Below are positions 17,298 to 48,027 of a stretch of DNA of 62,488 nt, in pieces (position 1 is the first letter of the stretch; each line of letters starts with the position of its first letter). The position numbers were made by a program, and so were the translations under genes. The notes beneath the pieces were generated by a model that was not told the origin of the DNA, made no database searches, and saw only the letters and a list, made by a program, of their open reading frames with translations. Source of the DNA: Clostridia bacterium (GTDB lineage: Bacteria; Bacillota; Peptococcia; DRI-13; SM3-B62); the NCBI GenBank assembly GCA_018432615.1, contig JAHDSQ010000055.1:1-62488 (forward strand), written 5' to 3'.

Positions 17298-17594
17298 AAA
17301 AAAAGCCTCATCCCTCCTGAAGGGACAAAGGCTTTGTGACCTCTGCGGTACCACCCAAATTGACGACGAATCGTCCGCTCGTTTTGTATACCATCATATA
17401 CACCCACTTGATAACGGACAGGGTCCCCGTAAGCGCCTACTTTTTCTTGTCAACATTCCTGTCAACAAAATTTCGGGCTTCCCTCACAAGTCCATTCAAA
17501 ACGAACTCCGTAGCCGCATTCTCACCAACCGGCGGCTCTCTGCATACGAATAACCGTTTCTACTACTCTTGCTCATAGGTTTGCTATATCGTTA
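17298..17594 (-). promoter_or_regulatory. Tryptophan T-box leader (tRNA-Trp-sensing riboswitch)
   Basis: On the minus strand the leader carries the hallmark GGGTGGTACCGCAG (17356-17343) of the antiterminator. The Stem I features are AGAGTAGTA and GAGAGCCG...GGTTGGTGAGAA, and the specifier loop is GAATGGAC with a TGG (Trp) codon at 17494-17492. The leader ends in a hairpin with an AAAGCC / GGCTTT base and a T-run at 17335-17298. Uncharged tRNA-Trp pairing here should prevent termination and switch on trpBADCF. Confidence 0.95.
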
Positions 17595-31627: not shown

Positions 31628-32950
31628 TTACAGTTGTTTTAAGTACTTGCGTATTTCCCAATCATGCACGGATTCCGCATATTTATCCCATTCTTTTTGT
31701 TTGGCTTTCAAAAAACTCCTATATACGTGTTCACCTAAAGTTTCAGCTACCAAGGAGTCTTTTTGCATTTCCTCCAATGCCTCCTGCAGATCGCGAGGAT
31801 AGCAACCTACCCCCCTTTTTCTTAAAGAAGGCTCGTCCGTGCAAAAGGCATTGCTTTGCAAGGGTTCGGGCGGCATAATCTTATTCTTAATACCTTCCAA
31901 CCCGGCCTTAAGCATAAGCGCGTAAAGGAAATAGGGGTTGGCAGCAGGATCAGGACTGCGGTATTCGACACGAGTCCCGTCACCGCGAGAGGCAGGAACA
32001 CGTATCAAGGTACTGCGGTTACAGGTAGACCAGGCAACATGAATCGGTGCCTCGTAACCGGGTTTTAAACGCTTGTAACTGTTGATGACCGGATTAGCAA
32101 TAGCCGCAATACCGCGGGCATGCTTCAAAAGGCCTCCGATAAAAAACCTCGCTGTTTCACTTAATTCCTCCGGATCCCGCGGATCATAAAAAACATTGAC
32201 CCCGTCTTTGAACAAGGATTGATTGCAGTGCATGGCACTACCATTTTCACCACTTAAGGGTTTGGGCATAAACGTTGCGTATAGTCCTGACTGATACGCA
32301 ATATTTTTGACCACGTCACGAAACGTCATCCAGTTGTCAGCGGTTTGGAGAGCCTCTCCATATTTAAAATCAATCTCGTGCTGCCCCGGAGCCACCTCAT
32401 GGTGTGAAGCTTCTATACTGAAATCCATCTTTTTGAGGGTAAGAATAATGTTACGGCGTGCATCCTCCCCCAAATCCACCGGCGCTAAATCAAAATACCC
32501 GGCTTGATCGTGGATATCAAAAATGGGATACCCTTTGTCATCTGCTTGAAAGAGGAAGAATTCCCCCTCCGGCCCAATGTTATAGACCAATCCCATTTCC
32601 TCCGCTTCACGAAGGGCCTTTTTCAAAACATAACGAGGACATCCCTGGAAAGGATGCCCTTCAGTTGTGTAAACGTCACATATCATCCGTGCCACGCCTT
32701 CTTCCTGTGGTCTCCAAGGCATAACAGCGTAAGTATCGGGGTCCGGTACAATACATTGGTCGGATTCCTCAACAGACGCAAAACCGTCCACAGAGGAACC
32801 ATCAAACATCAATTCACCCGCAAAAGCACGTTCCAACTCATTGACCATCACCGAAGTGCTTTTCATAATACCAAAAATATCAATAAACTGTAATCGAATA
32901 AACTCGATACCTTTTTCTTCAACATCCTTAAGAACATCTTCTTTTGTCAC
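31628..32950 (-). CDS. glnA: Type I glutamine synthetase (possible beta-glutamate amidation role)
   Basis: About 440 aa, the usual GSI length. Conserved parts are FMDGSSVDGF-like FDGSSVDGF, GPEGEFFLF, PGQHEIDF (metal ligands), NGSAMHCNQSLF, and NRSTLIRVPAS with EYRSPDPAANPY at the ATP/glutamate site. There is no adenylylation loop of the proteobacterial type. I chose GTG 32950 (MTKEDVLKDVEEKG) because GGAGG lies five bases before it; ATG 32995 would overlap the upstream gene. It is co-transcribed with an aminomutase carrying glutamate-specific residues behind a c-di-AMP riboswitch. Beyond ordinary glutamine synthesis it could therefore amidate beta-glutamate, which some glutamine synthetases are known to accept. 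That role is inference. Confidence 0.92.
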   Translation of the reverse strand: MTKEDVLKDVEEKGIEFIRLQFIDIFGIMKSTSVMVNELERAFAGELMFDGSSVDGFASVEESDQCIVPDPDTYAVMPWRPQEEGVARMICDVYTTEGHPFQGCPRYVLKKALREAEEMGLVYNIGPEGEFFLFQADDKGYPIFDIHDQAGYFDLAPVDLGEDARRNIILTLKKMDFSIEASHHEVAPGQHEIDFKYGEALQTADNWMTFRDVVKNIAYQSGLYATFMPKPLSGENGSAMHCNQSLFKDGVNVFYDPRDPEELSETARFFIGGLLKHARGIAAIANPVINSYKRLKPGYEAPIHVAWSTCNRSTLIRVPASRGDGTRVEYRSPDPAANPYFLYALMLKAGLEGIKNKIMPPEPLQSNAFCTDEPSLRKRGVGCYPRDLQEALEEMQKDSLVAETLGEHVYRSFLKAKQKEWDKYAESVHDWEIRKYLKQL

Positions 32951-32978
32951 AACTTCCTCCTCGTCATCCGTTAAACCA

Positions 32979-34250
32979 CTACTTCTCAAAAACATGGTTA
33001 GGGTAGTTGAAAGTCTTACCCTGCCAGGTACGGATTACAACCTCTTTTTCATCGAGAGACAACACGTATTCCGGATTGACCGGCGTCTTACCATAGCCCC
33101 CCGGCGCATTGATAATATAGGTGGGTATGGCCAAGCCTGACGTGTAACCGCGCAAGTGCTTCATGATCTCCAGACCCTTCTGCACCGGAGCAATGAAATG
33201 AGTCGTGCCCTTGACCTCTTTGGCATGGAATATATAGTAAGGACGCACCCTTATCTTTAAGAGCTCTTGATTAAGCTTCTTCATCACATTGCGGTCATCA
33301 TTTATTCCTTTAAGCAAGACAGCCTGGTTACCCAAAATAACTCCCGCTTCAACTAACATATCACAAGCCTTCTTAGCTTCCGGAGTAACCTCCATAGGTG
33401 AATTAAACTGTGTATTGATATAGAGAGGCGGGTACTTTTTCAGGATCCGACAAAGCTCAGGTGTGACCCTCTGTGGAATAGTCACCGGCGCTCTCGTCCC
33501 CAGACGCTTAATCTCCACATGCTCAATGGCATCCAATTCTCCTAAGAGCCAATCGATCGTCTCATCACTCAGCATGAAGGCATCCCCGCCGGTTACCAGC
33601 ACATCCCGTATTTCCGGGTTTTCCCTAATGTACTGCAAAGCAGCTTCCAAATCTTCATGAGCCGCGTGACTGTCGGTCTCGCCGAAATTCCTGCGGCGCT
33701 GACAATGTCGGCAGTACATCCCACATTGGTTGGTTACATTGATAATCAACCTGTCAGGATAACGGCGTGTAATACGAGGAGCCGGATTGGTAGTTTCTTC
33801 CCCCATCGGATCATCGTCACTTTGATTATCATTCAGTTCAAGCAAACTGGGAACAGACTGCATGTATATAGGCGATTCCTCATAATTCTCAAAATCAATC
33901 AGACTGAGATAATACGGTGAAATAGCCCAACGAAGCTGTTTCGAAGCCCTCCTGATCGCATGTATCTCCAGCTCGTTCAAATCTAATATTGAAGCCAGCG
34001 TCTCCACGTCACTGACGCGTTTTTCCATTTGCCACTTCCAATTATTCCAGTTGTGTTCATCTGCTCCAAAATATTCCAAAATACGTTCCCTATTGCGCAT
34101 GCTGCGCTCATGAAATCTCATTCCCGTTTCAATATTTTGCTCTATCTGGAGATAATCAGCAATTTCCCTCTTGAGCTCTTCGGCTCTGCGTAAAGATATC
34201 TCGCGTTTTTCTTCCAGCGATTCGCTCTTGATATAACCTTCTTTAGACAA
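32979..34250 (-). CDS. eam: Glutamate 2,3-aminomutase (radical SAM, PLP)
   Basis: A 423-aa protein of the lysine 2,3-aminomutase family. The radical-SAM cluster is Cys176, Cys180 and Cys183 (CGMYCRHC), GGDAFML lies at about 221, and the PLP lysine is K388 in APGGYGKTP. The two aspartates that hold the lysine side chain in lysine 2,3-aminomutase are replaced here by K344 (FHAKEVKG) and N381 (IINAPGG). As I recall them, these are the Lys/Asn changes of the characterised Clostridioides difficile glutamate 2,3-aminomutase (K332 and N369 there, both offset by 12). It should therefore make beta-glutamate, a known compatible solute. It starts at TTG 34250 behind AAGGAGGG, is followed by glutamine synthetase, and is preceded by a c-di-AMP riboswitch. 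Confidence 0.88.
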   Translation of the reverse strand: MSKEGYIKSESLEEKREISLRRAEELKREIADYLQIEQNIETGMRFHERSMRNRERILEYFGADEHNWNNWKWQMEKRVSDVETLASILDLNELEIHAIRRASKQLRWAISPYYLSLIDFENYEESPIYMQSVPSLLELNDNQSDDDPMGEETTNPAPRITRRYPDRLIINVTNQCGMYCRHCQRRRNFGETDSHAAHEDLEAALQYIRENPEIRDVLVTGGDAFMLSDETIDWLLGELDAIEHVEIKRLGTRAPVTIPQRVTPELCRILKKYPPLYINTQFNSPMEVTPEAKKACDMLVEAGVILGNQAVLLKGINDDRNVMKKLNQELLKIRVRPYYIFHAKEVKGTTHFIAPVQKGLEIMKHLRGYTSGLAIPTYIINAPGGYGKTPVNPEYVLSLDEKEVVIRTWQGKTFNYPNHVFEK

Positions 34251-34289
34251 AAAAATCCCTCCTTGTTTTCTTTTTTAACCACAAACGAA

Positions 34290-34450
34290 GAGGGTCATCC
34301 TATTTTTTGATGTTGTACCCTCCCCAACATGCCTGCGAGGTTAGCTGACGGGTTCGGGCAAGGGGACTGCCCTACCGGCAAAGCCGGATTCACCCCAAAT
34401 TTTGGGTCCCCCACTCCGGTCGCGGGACCGGACTCGGCATTAAATCCACG
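34290..34450 (-). promoter_or_regulatory. c-di-AMP (ydaO-yuaA) riboswitch with terminator
   Basis: On the minus strand the aptamer (about 34450-34323) carries ydaO hallmarks: TAATGCCGAGTCCGG, GGGGTGAATCCGG, TAGGGCAG, GAACCCGTCAGCTAACC and CTCGCAGGC. It is followed by a hairpin, GAGGGT...ACCCTC with an inner CATC/GATG stem (34322-34290), and a partly T-rich tail, which looks like the expression platform. High c-di-AMP should terminate transcription, turning off the aminomutase-glutamine synthetase operon. Confidence 0.9.
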
Positions 34451-34538: not shown

Positions 34539-35159
34539 CTAAAACTCCTTATTCCGATAGATTCTTAAAGAGGACATTATTGAAACGGCTACAGCAATTA
34601 ATAGAACAAAAGGCAAGATATATACCAGACTGTTTAGGACATCCGGATCAGGCAACGTTAACCCCATTTTAGGTATCATCTTGGCTCCCACCATAATAAT
34701 TCCTGTTGGTATGAACAAAACCATCATCATTATCAAACGACCCTTTTCCATTCCGTACTTGAAAAGAAAGGGCAGGACCAAAGAAATAAACAGAATGCTG
34801 ACACCGGCTAACGAAAAAGCAATACCGAGAACTTCTTTGTAAGGCAACTCCATTGATGCCTGATACAGCAGATTTATTATAAAAGCAGCCCCGGATAAAA
34901 GCAAACCCAACAGGTACTTGCTGAGCACCAGATCACGTCTGGAGACAGGCATGGTTAGGGCATATTTATCCCATTTTGCATACTCATCATAAGACATGGA
35001 GGTTACAGTAAGCATCACCATCATGATCGAAACAACCCCGCCAAAAAAGGCATTATCCCCACTGGTAAGGGAAACAACAATGTAAAACACGAACATTACC
35101 AGCAAAACTCTGTATTGCTTTTTCAAATTAATAAGGTCCTTAATCAGGAGTCCTCTCAT
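34539..35159 (-). CDS. ABC-2 transporter permease
   Basis: A 206-aa protein with six predicted helices (starts at about 19, 38, 77, 106, 134 and 176). It carries the ABC-2 pattern SMSYDEYAKWDKYALTMPVSRRDLVLSKYL, typical of YtrC/YtrD-like permeases (ABC2_membrane_5). Its start overlaps the ATPase gene by four bases. It is the last gene of a GntR-ATPase-permease operon, the usual YtrA-type envelope-stress cassette. Substrate unknown. Confidence 0.88.
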   Translation of the reverse strand: MRGLLIKDLINLKKQYRVLLVMFVFYIVVSLTSGDNAFFGGVVSIMMVMLTVTSMSYDEYAKWDKYALTMPVSRRDLVLSKYLLGLLLSGAAFIINLLYQASMELPYKEVLGIAFSLAGVSILFISLVLPFLFKYGMEKGRLIMMMVLFIPTGIIMVGAKMIPKMGLTLPDPDVLNSLVYILPFVLLIAVAVSIMSSLRIYRNKEF

Positions 35160-36007
35160 TGTCTTTTCGCCCCCTTAATATGGTAAAGCATGATATCCTC
35201 GATACTTGCCCGGTCAATGGTTACTCTGCCTCTTATTTTATCTTTAAGAACAAGGGCCTCTACACCAAAACTGTTTTTTCGATATCCCTTGACGGCAGAG
35301 TCATCAATCCCGGCAAACTCTTCTTCCGAGCACTTTAAAACCCCATAATCCGTCAGCAATTCATCCTTGCTCCGAGAAAAAAGGATTTTCCCTTGGTGAA
35401 TGAAGGTAATATAATCACAGGCTTTTTCCAAATCGCTGATGATATGTGACGACATCAAGACTGAATTCTTTTCGTCTTGAATGAATTCCAAAAACACATC
35501 CAGTATTTCCTCACGCACGATAGGATCCAGGCCACTGGTAGCCTCATCCAGAATGAGAAGTTTTGTCCCGTGGGACAGTGCCGCCGCAATAGACAATTTC
35601 ATTTTCATACCTTTTGAGTATTCCTTGATTATTTTCCCTCCCGGAAGAGAAAACTGTTTCCTCAGGGCTTCATACTTGGCCTCATCCCAGGTTTTGTAGA
35701 TATTCTTGCAAATGCTGTTTACGTTCACCGCCGTCAAGTTGTCCGGGAAATAACTGTCCTCCATCACTACCCCCAGGTGTTCCTTGACCTGATTTAATTC
35801 CGTGAGGTTGTCTTTACCCAATACACTTATTCTGCCCGCATCCCTTTTAATCAAATCCAGGATAAGCTTGATAGTCGTGGTCTTACCGGCTCCATTTTCC
35901 CCGATAAACCCCATTATATAGCCCCGGGGCAGCTTAATATTCACTTGCTCCAGTGCAAAACCCTCGTACTTTTTAGATACATCCACCACTTCTAAAGCAT
36001 ACTCCAT
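35156..36007 (-). CDS. ABC transporter ATP-binding protein
   Basis: A 283-aa ATPase. Walker A is GENGAGKTTTIK, the signature is YSKGMKMKLS, Walker B is LLILDEATSGLDP and the switch His is in SSHIISD. A C-terminal extension of about 70 residues is typical of BcrA/YtrB-type exporters. It lies between the GntR regulator and the permease and starts at ATG 36007 behind GGGAG. Confidence 0.95.
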   Translation of the reverse strand: MEYALEVVDVSKKYEGFALEQVNIKLPRGYIMGFIGENGAGKTTTIKLILDLIKRDAGRISVLGKDNLTELNQVKEHLGVVMEDSYFPDNLTAVNVNSICKNIYKTWDEAKYEALRKQFSLPGGKIIKEYSKGMKMKLSIAAALSHGTKLLILDEATSGLDPIVREEILDVFLEFIQDEKNSVLMSSHIISDLEKACDYITFIHQGKILFSRSKDELLTDYGVLKCSEEEFAGIDDSAVKGYRKNSFGVEALVLKDKIRGRVTIDRASIEDIMLYHIKGAKRQ

Positions 36008-36018
36008 CTTCTACTCCC

Positions 36019-36390
36019 CTATCTCGTATAAATTAGGTTTAGCATTGCCACCAGTTCTTCCAGTCGCAGCCCGCAGACCTCTGCTTTTTCCACGATAGAC
36101 TGCATATGATCCTCAATCTCCCGCAGCCGCTGCTCTCTGATTAAGTCAATATTTTTGCTTGCGACAAAACTACCTTTTCCGGTGAAGGAGAAAATAAAAC
36201 CTTCTTTTTCCAGTTCCTCATAAGCCCTTTTTGTGGTAATCACGCTAATACGCAATTCCTTGGCCAGCAAACGCATGGAAGGAAGGGCGTCACCCTCCTG
36301 GAGTTTGCCTGCGATGATCAGGTTCTTTATCTGCGTGGCTATCTGCTCATATATCGGCTGTCCGCTGGAATTGCTGATAATAATATTCAT
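36019..36390 (-). CDS. GntR-family regulator, YtrA subfamily
   Basis: A 123-aa protein: winged helix at 8-75 (PIYEQIATQIKNLIIAGKLQEGDALPSMRLLAKELRISVITTKRAYEELEKEGFI) plus a short helical dimerisation tail. This is the YtrA form, with no ligand-binding domain. It is the first gene of the ABC cassette, and a palindrome overlapping the promoter at 36406-36430 is the likely operator for autorepression. Confidence 0.94.
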   Translation of the reverse strand: MNIIISNSSGQPIYEQIATQIKNLIIAGKLQEGDALPSMRLLAKELRISVITTKRAYEELEKEGFIFSFTGKGSFVASKNIDLIREQRLREIEDHMQSIVEKAEVCGLRLEELVAMLNLIYTR

Positions 36391-42843: not shown

Positions 42844-42872
42844 TTGACAACCGCAAGTCTTTTGCTTATAAT
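42844..42872 (+). promoter_or_regulatory. Promoter of the Mn riboswitch operon
   Basis: A consensus TTGACA (42844-42849) and TATAAT (42867-42872) with a 17-base spacer, placed directly upstream of the aptamer. A 14-base tandem duplication (TGATTTTATCCCGG) lies just before it. Confidence 0.85.
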
Positions 42873-42879
42873 TTCTGTA

Positions 42880-43012
42880 TTAGAGGGAGTAGCTGCCCTA
42901 AGGGGATTAAAGTCGTCAAGACGGAAGATTTGCAGATTCCCGGCTTTAATGACAGAACGTTTGGCAAGACTCTAAAATGAACACCATTGTAAAAAGCGGT
43001 GTTTGTTTTGGG
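42880..43012 (+). promoter_or_regulatory. yybP-ykoY manganese riboswitch with terminator
   Basis: The aptamer (about 42880-42973) contains the conserved GGGAGTAGC, AAAGTCGTCAAGACGG, CCCGGCTTTAATGACA and GTTTGGCAAGACTCT of the Mn2+-sensing yybP-ykoY class. It is followed by a terminator-like hairpin, AACACC...GGTGTT with a GTTTT tail (about 42980-43009). Mn2+ binding normally favours read-through and turns on export or transport genes. Confidence 0.88.
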
Positions 43013-43060
43013 GTCTTTTGTTTTTACATCATAAAAATACAAGCCAGGAGGTCCTTTTTG

Positions 43061-44119
43061 ATGGAGGAATTACTATCCACCTATCTCGGTTCTTTTCCTA
43101 CACTGCTATTGCTCATGGTTATTGCTTTGACGCTGTTCACGCTCTGCAAAGGTGCCGACATTCTAATCGATGAAGCCGTGTTGCTTTCTCTCCATTGGGG
43201 AGTCCCCCAAATGATCGTCGGCGCAACAATTGTATCCCTTGGTACAACACTTCCTGAGGCTAGTGTTTCCGTACTGGCAGCCTTTAATGGAAATGCCGAC
43301 TTGGCATTAGGTAATGCCATCGGCTCTATAATTGCCAACACCGGCCTGATCATAGGTGTAGCGTCAATGTTCGGACGTTTGCCGGTAGATAAACTTGTTG
43401 TGGAACGGCAGGGTAAAATACAACTAGGTACCGTCTTTTTGTTAGCCTTAGTAAGCCTTCCTTTCTTATCACCAGGACCGGGCGGCAATATCAGCCGGCC
43501 TGTCGGAATATTGTTTGTCATACTGCTGGCGGCTTATATCATCCTTTCCATTCGCTGGACAAGGTCCCCCGAATCTACTCAGACCAGCCAGCAGGAATTT
43601 CTTACGGCTATTGATGTTGAAACACCGGAAAAAAGCATAGGACATGATCTAAAAAAAGATAAAATCTCTCTCCTTCCTCGGATTCTAAAAATGACGTTTG
43701 GCGTAGCATTGGTCATAATATCCTCCAAGATTCTAATACAATCCGTTGAAATCACGGCACTGCGTGTAGGTGTTCCCCAAAGCATAATCGCTGCCACGCT
43801 AGTCGCCTTTGGTACCAGTTTGCCCGAACTGTTCGTAGCCGTAAATTCAGCCAGGAAAGGTCATGGCGAACTCGCAATCGGAAATATTGTCGGCGCCAAC
43901 ACTCTCAATGTCCTTTTTGTCGTAGGTAGTGCAGCTGCAGTAACAAGTAACGGGCTCCTTGTCCCCACGAACTACTACCGACTGCAAATCCCCACAATGC
44001 TTATTATATCTTTGTTGTTTTTCTTTTTCGCCAAAAAAGGATATAATGAAATAACCAAGAATGAGGGGCTCGGCCTTCTGACAGTCTATCTGGTCTATCT
44101 CGCACTGAATTATGTATAG
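43061..44119 (+). CDS. CaCA-family Na+/Ca2+-type cation antiporter (Mn2+-regulated)
   Basis: A 352-aa membrane protein with about ten helices in two inverted halves. Each half carries the CaCA alpha repeat: VGATIVSLGTTLPEASVSVLAA...LALGNAIGSIIANTGLI, and AATLVAFGTSLPELFVAVNSA...LAIGNIVGANTLNVLFV. The glutamates in LPE that bind the cation are both present. I chose ATG 43061 behind CAGGAGG; the upstream ATG 42977 lies inside the riboswitch terminator. As the first gene after a Mn2+ riboswitch it may export Mn2+ (or Ca2+) under metal excess. The ion is inference. Confidence 0.9.
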   Translation: MEELLSTYLGSFPTLLLLMVIALTLFTLCKGADILIDEAVLLSLHWGVPQMIVGATIVSLGTTLPEASVSVLAAFNGNADLALGNAIGSIIANTGLIIGVASMFGRLPVDKLVVERQGKIQLGTVFLLALVSLPFLSPGPGGNISRPVGILFVILLAAYIILSIRWTRSPESTQTSQQEFLTAIDVETPEKSIGHDLKKDKISLLPRILKMTFGVALVIISSKILIQSVEITALRVGVPQSIIAATLVAFGTSLPELFVAVNSARKGHGELAIGNIVGANTLNVLFVVGSAAAVTSNGLLVPTNYYRLQIPTMLIISLLFFFFAKKGYNEITKNEGLGLLTVYLVYLALNYV

Positions 44120-44172
44120 ATTTAAATAGATATGCTTAAATACGACCCAAGAGAGAAAGGACACGACTGCAT

Positions 44173-45681
44173 ATGAATATACTCCTTGAAAAAGTCAAAG
44201 AAGTTCTATATGCGGTGCTTCCCATCACGGTGATTGTTTTGGCTTTGAGTTTTACGGTCACGCCTCTCGAGAACGCCATGTTGTTCAGGTTTATCCTAGG
44301 CGCATTATGTGTTATCTTAGGCCTGTCAATTTTTTTGTCAGGTGTGGATATTGGGATCAGCCCGCTTGGCAATCTTATGGGCTCAGCTTTAGCCAAATCC
44401 AACAAGCTTAGGATAATAACCATTGGAGGGCTGCTACTCGGTTTTTTTATTTCCATCGCCGAACCTGATCTTCAGATCCTGGCAGACCAAGTAGCCTCTG
44501 TCACCCTTGGGCTAGTGCCAAAAATGTGGCTCATCGTCATAGTATCCCTGGGCATTGCCGTAATGATGACCTTGGGTTTTATTAGAATCGTCTATAACTT
44601 CTCCTTACGTAAAATTCTGACTATCCTTTATCTCATCATTTTTATCTTAGCCCTTTTCATATCACCGGGATTTATGGCGATATCCTTTGATGCATCTGGT
44701 GCAACCACCGGAGCTATGACCGTCCCCTTTATCCTGGCTCTTTCCACCGGGGTTTCCGCTTTGAAAAAAGATAGTAAGGATTCCGAAAGAGACAGCTTCG
44801 GTCTGGTGGCCGTGACATCGACAGGAGCGATAATAGCTGTCATGCTCATGAGCATCTTTTTTGGCTCCTCCGGAATCCTGAGCGGGGAATTGGTACAAGG
44901 ATCCAGCGCTGGTACTGCTTATTCCGCCTCAGTTTGGGCTCCTTTCTTCGAAAAAGCCCCCCAGGTTTTCAGGGAGGTTTTTATGGCTATGCTGCCCTTA
45001 TTATTTATCTTTTTGCTTATGCAAAGGATTTCTTTCAAGCTGAAAAAAAGAACTTTTACAAAAATATTAAAGGGGCTTGTCTATACCCTGCTTGGCTTAG
45101 TCTTATTCCTGGTGGGTGTAAATGCAGGCTTTATGGAAGCCGGTAAAGCCATAGGATACGGCGCGGCATCTATGGAAAACAAATCGTTGGTTGTTATTCT
45201 GGGGTTCGTCCTAGGTTTGGTTACAATATTAGCCGAACCGGCGGTTTACGTGCTGACCCATCAAATAGAAGAAGTCACCAGTGGTTATGTAAAAAGAAAA
45301 TTCGTTCTGCTCGCCCTCTCCATTGGAGTCGGCTTCGCCATAGCCTTATCCATCTTGAGGATACTGATCCCTCAAATCCAATTATGGCACTACCTGTTAC
45401 CGGGCTATTTGATTGCAGTAACTATGTCTTACTTCGTGCCGGAACTGTTTGTTGGTATAGCTTACGATTCGGGAGGTGTCGCTTCGGGACCGGTAACCGC
45501 AACCTTTATCTTGGCCTTTACCCATGGTGTCGCCGAAGCCATAGCAGGAGCAAGTGTTTTGATTGACGGCTTCGGAATGATTGCTATGGTAGCTTTAACA
45601 CCCTTGATTGCGCTGCAAACATTAGGTTTAATTTTTAAAATGAAATCCGGAAAAGGGGAGGGGAAAAAGCATGGAGGCTAA
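44173..45681 (+). CDS. DUF1538 membrane protein with two repeated halves
   Basis: A 502-aa, roughly 12-helix protein made of two DUF1538 copies. The halves share FRFILGALCVILGLSIFLSGVDIG...FISIAEPDLQILADQV and LGLVLFLVGVNAGFMEAGKAIG...LVTILAEPAVYVLTHQI, and FDASGATTGAMTVPFILAL recurs as YDSGGVASGPVTATFILAF. The acidic AEP and G-rich loops repeated across the halves look like a transporter core. It lies 53 bases after the antiporter with no terminator between, so it probably shares the Mn2+ riboswitch. Its end overlaps a tandem PII-like gene. By family it is an uncharacterised transporter. Confidence 0.86.
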   Translation: MNILLEKVKEVLYAVLPITVIVLALSFTVTPLENAMLFRFILGALCVILGLSIFLSGVDIGISPLGNLMGSALAKSNKLRIITIGGLLLGFFISIAEPDLQILADQVASVTLGLVPKMWLIVIVSLGIAVMMTLGFIRIVYNFSLRKILTILYLIIFILALFISPGFMAISFDASGATTGAMTVPFILALSTGVSALKKDSKDSERDSFGLVAVTSTGAIIAVMLMSIFFGSSGILSGELVQGSSAGTAYSASVWAPFFEKAPQVFREVFMAMLPLLFIFLLMQRISFKLKKRTFTKILKGLVYTLLGLVLFLVGVNAGFMEAGKAIGYGAASMENKSLVVILGFVLGLVTILAEPAVYVLTHQIEEVTSGYVKRKFVLLALSIGVGFAIALSILRILIPQIQLWHYLLPGYLIAVTMSYFVPELFVGIAYDSGGVASGPVTATFILAFTHGVAEAIAGASVLIDGFGMIAMVALTPLIALQTLGLIFKMKSGKGEGKKHGG

Positions 45682-46360
45682 CCTTAGCCATGACAAAATA
45701 GAGTTTGAGTTGATTTGTGTAATTGTCAACTATGGATTGGGAAGTAAGGTGCTGAAGATCGCCAAGCAAAACGGGGTCCTGGGAGGCACGATATTTTTAG
45801 GCAAAGGGACCGTCAAAAACCGCCTGTTGGAGCTTTTAGACTTATGCGATGTAAGAAAAGAAATTGTTTTGATGGTCGCAGAAAAAACAGTCGCCGACAA
45901 GGCCTTGGCAGAACTTAGCAGAACAATGAAATTTGACAAACCTAACCATGGTGTCGCCTTTGCTACCGCTGTCCTCGGCTTCATCGGTGCCGTCGGCAAA
46001 GAATACAGTGACAATGAGGAAGGTAATATAGAAAGAAAAAATGGAGGTGCAGCATCCACAATGTATAACGCTATTTATGTAATTGTTGACAGGGGTAAAG
46101 CCGAATCCGTTATAGATGCCGCCACCGAGGCAGGTTCAAGGGGAGGAACTATAATCAATGCCAGGGGTTCGGGGATTCATGAGACCGGCAAATTATTCGC
46201 CATGGAAATAGAACCGGAAAAAGAAATCGTTCTGATACTGTCGGAGGAACATTTAACAGAAGCAATAACTTCTTCAATCAGAAAAAACCTCGCCATTGAC
46301 GAGCCCGGTAACGGAGTAATCTTCATTCAAAACGTGAACCAGGCTTACGGCTTGTATTAG
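45671..46360 (+). CDS. Tandem PII-like regulatory protein
   Basis: A 229-aa protein containing two PII/GlnB-like ferredoxin-fold domains: about 12-115 (ELICVIVNYGLGSKVLKIAKQNGVLGGTIFLGKGT) and 130-229 (NAIYVIVDRGKAESVIDAATEAGSRGGTIINARGSG). The loop after each second strand (GGTIF.GKGT, GGTIINARGSG) resembles the nucleotide-binding region of PII proteins. There is no uridylylation tyrosine loop of GlnB type. It overlaps the DUF1538 gene by 11 bases, recalling AmtB-GlnK and SbtA-SbtB pairs in which a PII protein gates a transporter. A gating role is inference. Confidence 0.85.
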   Translation: MEANLSHDKIEFELICVIVNYGLGSKVLKIAKQNGVLGGTIFLGKGTVKNRLLELLDLCDVRKEIVLMVAEKTVADKALAELSRTMKFDKPNHGVAFATAVLGFIGAVGKEYSDNEEGNIERKNGGAASTMYNAIYVIVDRGKAESVIDAATEAGSRGGTIINARGSGIHETGKLFAMEIEPEKEIVLILSEEHLTEAITSSIRKNLAIDEPGNGVIFIQNVNQAYGLY

Positions 46361-46377
46361 TCAAACATATCAAACAT

Positions 46378-46407
46378 GGGGTCAGGCTTGAATTATTCCC
46401 TTATTCC
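46378..46407 (+). repeat. REP-like element, copy 1
   Basis: GGGGTCAGGCTTGAATTATT followed by CCCTTATTCC. It covers the 3' end and stop codon of the thpR gene on the other strand. This is the RAYT-type REP motif, identical over 26 bases to copy 2 at 46955-46980. Confidence 0.8.
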
Positions 46408-46954: not shown

Positions 46955-46980
46955 GGGGTCAGGCTTGAATTATTCCCTTA
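46955..46980 (+). repeat. REP-like element, copy 2
   Basis: Identical over 26 bases to copy 1 (GGGGTCAGGCTTGAATTATT then CCCTTA). It lies between the RAYT stop codon and the thpR start and supplies the RAYT tail GIRE and its stop. Confidence 0.8.
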
Positions 46981-47953
46981 TTCCCTTCCCCTTTTCCCAC
47001 CTTTCTATCACTTCTTCAACATATACCGTTTTTTTGCTCTCGCCGGATTTTATCTTTGATATCATCGACGGGGGCAAATTAAGTTTGTGGGCTAACTCCT
47101 TTGTTTTTGGAGCTGGCTCACAATATTTTTCGCTAAGAATAACTATCGCCTTACGAATATCTGATAACCTTTGGATTTTTGTCCTTTTAGAAATCTCACC
47201 GCTTGTAGTATTCTCATTACGGCATACTTCCTCAATTACCTCCCAAATATTCGCTTTCTTCCCTGTTGCTACTTCTGAATCTTTTCTGCTACCGTCTTTT
47301 ATAACACTGTCAATACTACTATTACTGCTATCACAGCTGTTTATCCCATTATTCCCTGCAGATCCCCATTGTTTCGTATCTTCATACATCTCTTCAACGT
47401 CCGTTATCTTATCCTGTGCCTCATTCATAAAGTGAAGGTAATTTCTTACCGCTTTGCCTCTAATGTTTCCAAATAAATTCAGCGCCTCGTCAGCATCGAC
47501 CAATCTGTCCTTTTCTCTTCCCATATAATATGGGTGGCTACTCCATTTATATTCCAAGCCTCTCTGGAGGCCAGCTTCCAAAGGGTTCCTATGAATATAC
47601 TTGACAAGTTGCAGAAAATAGCTTTCCTTATTGCACAACAGCGCCTTATATCTTTGCTGAAATACATGACCGGTCCTCTTGTGGATGCGGTTAAACCATT
47701 GTGTATATACCTGCTGGACTCGCTGCATGATACAGGATAACGGAATATCCTGTACTCCTATTAACAGGTGCGCATGGTTATCCATAATACAGAACGCGTA
47801 CAGGTTAAAACCTAATTCTTGTTTGTACCGATAAAGTATGTTTAAATACTTTTCTTTATGCAGTTCCCCCAAAAATACTTTTTCTCTGTTATTACCTCTG
47901 ACTATAACGTGATATAGGGCCCCTGCATAATGAAACCTGGATTTTCTTGCCAT
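46970..47953 (-). CDS. REP-associated tyrosine transposase (RAYT, IS200-like)
   Basis: About 327 aa. The Y1/HUH transposase domain starts MARKSRFHYAGALYHVIVRGNN, has the HUH motif in MDNHAHLLIG, and the catalytic-helix region YFLQLVKYIHRNPLEAGL containing the tyrosine. The C-terminal third includes a DnaA-like/HTH stretch (LPPSMISKIKSGESKKTV). I chose ATG 47953 because family members start MARKxRxxY; ATG 47998 adds 15 atypical residues. REP copies flank it in inverted orientation (46955 and 48007). It looks intact. Confidence 0.92.
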   Translation of the reverse strand: MARKSRFHYAGALYHVIVRGNNREKVFLGELHKEKYLNILYRYKQELGFNLYAFCIMDNHAHLLIGVQDIPLSCIMQRVQQVYTQWFNRIHKRTGHVFQQRYKALLCNKESYFLQLVKYIHRNPLEAGLQRGLEYKWSSHPYYMGREKDRLVDADEALNLFGNIRGKAVRNYLHFMNEAQDKITDVEEMYEDTKQWGSAGNNGINSCDSSNSSIDSVIKDGSRKDSEVATGKKANIWEVIEEVCRNENTTSGEISKRTKIQRLSDIRKAIVILSEKYCEPAPKTKELAHKLNLPPSMISKIKSGESKKTVYVEEVIERWEKGKGIRE

Positions 47954-48006
47954 TTTCATCACCAAACCAATCGTATCATTAGTGAATGAATATTTCAAGA
48001 ATAAGT

Positions 48007-48027
48007 GAATAATTCAAGCCTGACCCC
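48007..48027 (-). repeat. REP-like element, copy 3 (inverted)
   Basis: On the minus strand this reads GGGGTCAGGCTTGAATTATT, inverted relative to copies 1 and 2. It lies just upstream of the RAYT gene and five bases beyond the BlaR1-like stop. Confidence 0.8.

Follow-up and report, generated by a model that had tools for sequence, protein, structure and literature searches.

A yybP-ykoY riboswitch and CaCA antiporter gene adjoining a DUF1538 and PII-like gene pair in a Clostridia bacterium

The window, a stretch of 62,488 nucleotides from the genome of a Clostridia bacterium, contains a locus that is best read, with a probability of roughly 0.7, as two modules lying end to end: a Mn2+-sensing ON switch with a CaCA antiporter, which would together form an efflux unit, and an independent monovalent-cation/H+ antiporter that would be gated by a PII-like protein (Table 1). 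The manganese half of this arrangement is ordinary, and it is the conserved pairing of DUF1538 with the PII-like protein that deserves attention.

Table 1. Position of the features of the locus within the window, with the evidence for each
Feature	Position	Strand	Evidence
Sigma-A type promoter, TTGACA-17-TATAAT	42844..42872	+	consensus score 12/12
yybP-ykoY Mn2+ riboswitch aptamer	42880..42975	+	RF00080 27.9 bits and core motifs; P1/P3 pairs
Intrinsic terminator, 20-bp stem and U-rich tail	42966..43025	+	fold; overlap of stem and aptamer
CaCA superfamily antiporter, probable Mn2+ exporter	43061..44119	+	PF01699, TIGR00367
DUF1538-PII block, absent at the same place in L120	44120..46377 (borders approximate)	+	DNA alignment
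Fused two-repeat DUF1538 membrane protein, probable monovalent-cation/H+ antiporter	44173..45681	+	PF07556
Tandem PII-like protein, probable regulator of the DUF1538 protein	45671..46360	+	PF00543 on the C-terminal half
Dispersed 22-bp repeat copy, right border of the block	46378..46399	+	repeat count

The riboswitch leader and the CaCA gene

The promoter proposed in an earlier, sequence-only reading of this DNA matches the consensus throughout, and an equally perfect promoter occupies the equivalent position in L120, a sister species and the sole other genome of the same genus that was found. The same reading placed a yybP-ykoY aptamer downstream of it, and this interval was searched with Rfam. 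At the default curated threshold no riboswitch was reported in the leader; a permissive search returned RF00080 with E 2e-5 at a score that does not reach the gathering value of 45. Yet the aptamer core is complete, comprising P1 (TTAGAG/CTCTAA, 42880-42885 paired with 42970-42975), GGGAGTAGC, the L1 motif GTCGTCAA, CCGGCTTTAAT and the L3 motif GCAAGAC. The core motifs P1, GGGAGTA, L1 and L3 are common to five other aptamers from elsewhere in the class; all six RF00080 matches in the other genomes of the class fall under the gathering score, and five of the six show the core. The entire switch element, including the promoter, is kept in the sister species. Because the core is shared with five aptamers and maintained in L120, the match is judged from its sequence to be a real yybP-ykoY aptamer upstream of the CaCA gene, despite its low score. 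The support comes from this conserved core and not from folding energy, since minimum free energy folding of the aptamer alone gives a structure no better than those of shuffled sequences (z 0.14).

A model (R1) was built from six such aptamers, the window's among them; the alignment did not include L117, whose locus begins close to the end of its contig. The window's aptamer scores 90.2 bits against this model, which was partly built from the window sequence itself, and among 398 phylum genomes 127 contain matches. Many of the genes behind 30 fetched matches are TerC-like and others are P-type ATPase-like or GDT1-like, as read from their sequence rather than by a family scan. By direct comparison a CaCA gene follows four of them: that of the window, that of L164 (362 bits), which is a second genome of the order with the switch-CaCA pairing, and, with weak matches, those of L148 and L149.

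Folding of positions 42960-43030 gives a free energy of -26.7 kcal/mol (z -5.57), corresponding to a strong leader terminator that the sequence-only reading had omitted. The 5' arm of its stem takes in 42970-42975, the 3' strand of P1, and the aptamer and the terminator are therefore mutually exclusive; the same layout is seen in G404 and four other aptamers. In the yybP-ykoY class Mn2+ stabilises P1, which in combination with this overlap leads us to infer a Mn2+-responsive transcriptional ON switch, both the binding of Mn2+ and the regulation being predicted from the sequence. When Mn2+ is absent, the 20-bp terminator would form in the leader; when it is bound, P1 would sequester the strand needed by the terminator, such that RNA polymerase would continue into the CaCA gene. 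A match to miR-430 at 42963-43021 is the terminator hairpin, and no miRNA is proposed.

The product of the first gene has two Na_Ca_ex domains (PF01699 in two stretches, 189.9 bits, 3.3e-56) and matches TIGR00367 at 192 bits, above the cut-off of 179.65. Its start is placed at the ATG at 43061, which is preceded by a good Shine-Dalgarno sequence (AGGAGG), in preference to the first ATG of the open reading frame, at 42977, which sits inside the terminator. The CaCA protein BP3410 of Bordetella pertussis, a Mn exporter under the control of a yybP-ykoY switch, reduces cell Mn approximately five-fold in its functional form (PMC8546581). The two loci are alike in having this class of aptamer directly upstream of a CaCA antiporter, and differ in the DUF1538-PII block behind the window's gene; the window's leader would act by terminator/antiterminator exchange. 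By analogy, the window's antiporter is a probable Mn2+ exporter, and the switch with its CaCA gene belongs to an established type of Mn-efflux unit. The initial identification of a Mn2+ riboswitch ahead of a plausible Mn exporter is accordingly upheld by a pairing that has been shown experimentally in Bordetella and that recurs in L164 and, more weakly, in two further genomes.

The DUF1538 protein and its PII-like partner

The second gene encodes a protein with two copies of PF07556 (448.6 bits, cut-off 22.6), the halves of which align to each other (E 1.7e-29), in agreement with the two-fold architecture originally described. The accompanying statement that DUF1538 has no established function needs correcting, as UmpAB of Halomonas zhaodongensis, consisting of two DUF1538 proteins that are needed together, has been characterised as a Na+(Li+,K+)/H+ antiporter (PMC5484666). 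Family membership and the presence of two homologous halves are shared with UmpAB; the window's halves, by contrast, are fused in a single chain, and its scores against UmpA and UmpB, the nearest NCBIfam families (NF041627/NF041628, 162.4/145.4 bits), are far under the equivalog cut-offs of 490/500. As the protein falls within the Pfam family but outside these equivalogs, its ions are assigned from the family, by analogy with which it is a probable antiporter that would exchange Na+/K+ for H+. Both halves retain an EP motif and a glycine-rich motif that contains D, as do the Alphaproteobacteria proteins, and residues E97, D173, E355 and D432 are invariant in an alignment of 51 sequences. A sequence search to E 10 found no solved structures for DUF1538, and a fold search gave no match at E<=0.001. 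VIA-align returned Z values of at most 6.4 (4.5 for NCX_Mj), values that may reflect a shared arrangement alone when the membrane protein is helical; with no confident relative, no fold is claimed.

The third gene overlaps the second by 11 bp and encodes a tandem PII-like protein, both as previously noted. The P-II family (PF00543, 46.3 bits, cut-off 25) is called on the C-terminal half only, to which the N-terminal half is homologous by profile alignment (E 7.5e-17), and the AF2 monomer model (pLDDT 77.9) contains two b-a-b-b-a-b units, corresponding to ferredoxin-like domains. In a fold search of the tandem protein, the best rows were two-domain ferredoxin-like proteins (TM ~0.25), with single-domain PII chains next (target TM ~0.6-0.76). 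None of 53 aligned family members matches the canonical GlnB/GlnK signatures, namely the uridylylation site and the C-terminal B-loop, and on its sequence the window protein is classed as PII-like, not as GlnB/GlnK. Its T-loop is around six residues shorter than that of GlnK1, and there is strong conservation of the loop sequence RGSGIHET..LF.M.IEPEKE. The absent signatures, the short T-loop and the conserved loop fit a dedicated regulator, which would bind a partner and respond to a non-classic ligand. The translationally coupled protein would bind DUF1538 from the cytoplasm and adjust the activity of the antiporter in response to a small ligand.

The useful result of this analysis is that DUF1538 and the PII-like protein form an obligate-looking pair, in Bacillota and beyond. 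A PII gene lies directly downstream of DUF1538 in every intact locus checked, approximately 125 in number. In the genomes that hold the closest DUF1538 proteins it is next in 80/80 loci (79 called, and L112 identified by eye where the contig ends), and the overlap is most frequently of 11 bp, as in the window's pair; in the phylum and class samples it is adjacent in 43/43 intact loci, outside which stand three more that are truncated where the contig or locus stops. The arrangement of the domains varies between these 43 loci: fourteen have a fused DUF1538 pair (DD) with fused PII domains (PP) and three a fused DD with separate PP, while a split DUF1538 pair is accompanied by two fused PII domains in twelve, by two separate ones in six and by one in five, and the remaining three have a single copy of each. 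On two Alphaproteobacteria plasmids the order is D, D, P-II. This near universality across loci lends weight to the resemblance to AmtB-GlnK and SbtA-SbtB to which the sequence-only reading had drawn attention. As in those systems (PMC8352866 for SbtA-SbtB), a membrane transporter and a PII-fold protein are found in one operon; the window's pair differs in its transporter family, its two-domain tandem PII and its lack of the canonical PII motifs. The cloned UmpAB fragment has no PII gene reported among its ORFs, implying that PII is dispensable for transport in E. coli, and the paper makes no mention of PII (PMC5484666).

Elsewhere, the operon-like neighbours of DUF1538-PII belong to unrelated families, none of which occurs in more than 4 of 36 cases, and an Rfam search of 22 DUF1538 loci detected no recurrent upstream RNA. 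No literature on the pairing was found among the open-access papers searched, five of which contain DUF1538. The odds are about even that DUF1538-PII constitutes a widespread, undescribed and modular (1+1, 2+2, fused+fused) class of PII-gated monovalent-cation/proton antiporters, in which the PII ligand would be neither ATP nor 2-oxoglutarate. If PII does gate the antiporter, another transporter family would stand alongside AmtB-GlnK and SbtA-SbtB, and PII signalling would extend to Na+/K+ and pH homeostasis.

Transcription of the pair and its proposed link to manganese

The CaCA and DUF1538 genes are separated by a gap of 53 nt that holds neither a terminator nor a clear promoter. From the CaCA to the PII gene no terminator-like site was detected on the + strand other than a weak stem at 45198-45215, inside DUF1538, which bears out the earlier observation that the three genes have no terminator between them. 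The pair might nevertheless be expressed, without any response to Mn2+, from a promoter of its own within the 3' end of the CaCA gene. There, the best promoter-like site before DUF1538 scores 9/12 overall, combining a perfect TATAAT -10 box (44042-44047) and a poor -35, and 61/77 other loci lack a close same-strand upstream gene, indicating that the pair mostly begins its own unit. However, a score of 9/12 is the best found in shuffled upstream sequence in 45/79 cases, and the TATAAT box lies on Tyr-Asn codons that the sister species encodes too, making an independent promoter possible but unlikely. With the promoter-like site at chance level, the short gap and the lack of a terminator make read-through under Mn control likely, and transcripts that continue from the Mn switch probably account for at least part of the transcription of DUF1538-PII.

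The position of the pair behind this switch had previously been taken to suggest a gated metal-related transport system, and a survey of DUF1538-PII pairs for neighbouring Mn riboswitches had been proposed as a check. Neither a Mn aptamer nor a CaCA gene is present within 6 kb of any of the 80 related DUF1538 loci. Across the 398 phylum genomes, in which DUF1538 is found in 139 and the Mn switch in 127, both occur together in 30, below expectation (odds ratio 0.46, p 0.0015, uncorrected for phylogeny). In the 29 genomes with both other than the window's, the two are linked in 0/29, lying on different contigs or more than 400 kb apart, although fragmented assemblies could hide a few cases. L120 retains the switch, terminator and CaCA gene at approximately 89% DNA identity to the window, with a convergent LigT gene directly after CaCA, and no DUF1538 was found in its genome; G156, of the same order, likewise has the switch-CaCA unit without DUF1538.

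These distributions bear on two further explanations of the locus. That DUF1538-PII is a PII-gated transporter of Mn2+ or another metal, belonging functionally to the Mn riboswitch regulon, would account for its position behind CaCA, from which it is separated by 53 nt lacking a terminator or a clear promoter; but the linkage occurs in no other genome, the switch and DUF1538 coincide less often than expected, the sister species runs its Mn unit without the pair and the characterised DUF1538 member moves Na+, Li+ and K+, such that this explanation is highly improbable. A coupling confined to this lineage, by which CaCA would extrude Mn2+ against Na+ (or H+), DUF1538 would re-export the Na+, and co-expression under Mn2+ would have been selected, accords with the ion logic of CaCA exchangers and UmpAB and with the operon-like spacing, but it would apply to one genome only, with the sister species and G156 having the switch and CaCA without DUF1538, and is considered improbable. 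Under the preferred reading of an efflux unit followed by an independent antiporter module, the read-through would be a matter of local position and not of a conserved regulon. The three-gene Mn-switch operon of the sequence-only reading is plausible, but the metal-related transport that it drew from the placement is not supported.

Among the genomes examined, the linkage is present in that of the window only, and probably arises from recent gene gain or loss. The flanks of the DUF1538-PII block are 87-89% identical between the window and L120. Within this genus, the pair would either have been placed behind the Mn unit, or have been retained while the sister species lost it; a DUF1538 tree bearing on gain versus loss has weak support around the window. 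On its right the block is bordered by a 22-bp repeat, which has 13 copies in the genome at <=2 mismatches, as against 0 in the reversed control, and is also found around the neighbouring Y1 transposase. Such surroundings are a setting for easy gain or loss.

DUF1538-PII modules and manganese riboswitches

At three comparison loci (L136, L138 and L139) the module is minimal, with one unpaired DUF1538 gene of 233 aa and, behind it, one PII gene of ~100 aa; this suggests that the fused pair had a homo-oligomeric ancestor. Genuine-looking Mn2+ riboswitches in L120, from a same-genus sister species lacking the DUF1538-PII block, in comparison loci L121 and L122 and in other genomes of the class all fall short of the gathering cut-off for RF00080 (Rfam 15; a model of 177 positions), and would therefore be overlooked by routine annotation.

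Other features of the window

Features detected in the window
Feature	Position	Strand	Remark
T-box leader	17318-17585	-	113.7 bits
Region of the c-di-AMP riboswitch and the glutamate 2,3-aminomutase and glutamine synthetase genes	31628-34449	-	riboswitch-led
c-di-AMP riboswitch	34315-34449	-	101 bits, strong
ABC transporter pair, GntR-type regulator	34539-36390	-	
22-bp repeat	46378-46399, 46955-46976, 48006-48027		three copies
Y1 (IS200-like) transposase gene	46970-47998		22-bp repeat on both flanks

The gene behind the c-di-AMP riboswitch is assigned to glutamate 2,3-aminomutase (703.8 bits against a cut-off of 650) and overlaps that for glutamine synthetase; this looks like a c-di-AMP-controlled operon producing the osmolytes beta-glutamate and beta-glutamine. 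The ABC transporter ATPase and the GntR-type regulator resemble PmtA and PmtR respectively, both below the equivalog cut-offs. Allowing up to two mismatches, the 22-bp repeat has 13 copies genome-wide, one of them (46378-46399) sitting at the right-hand edge of the DUF1538-PII block.
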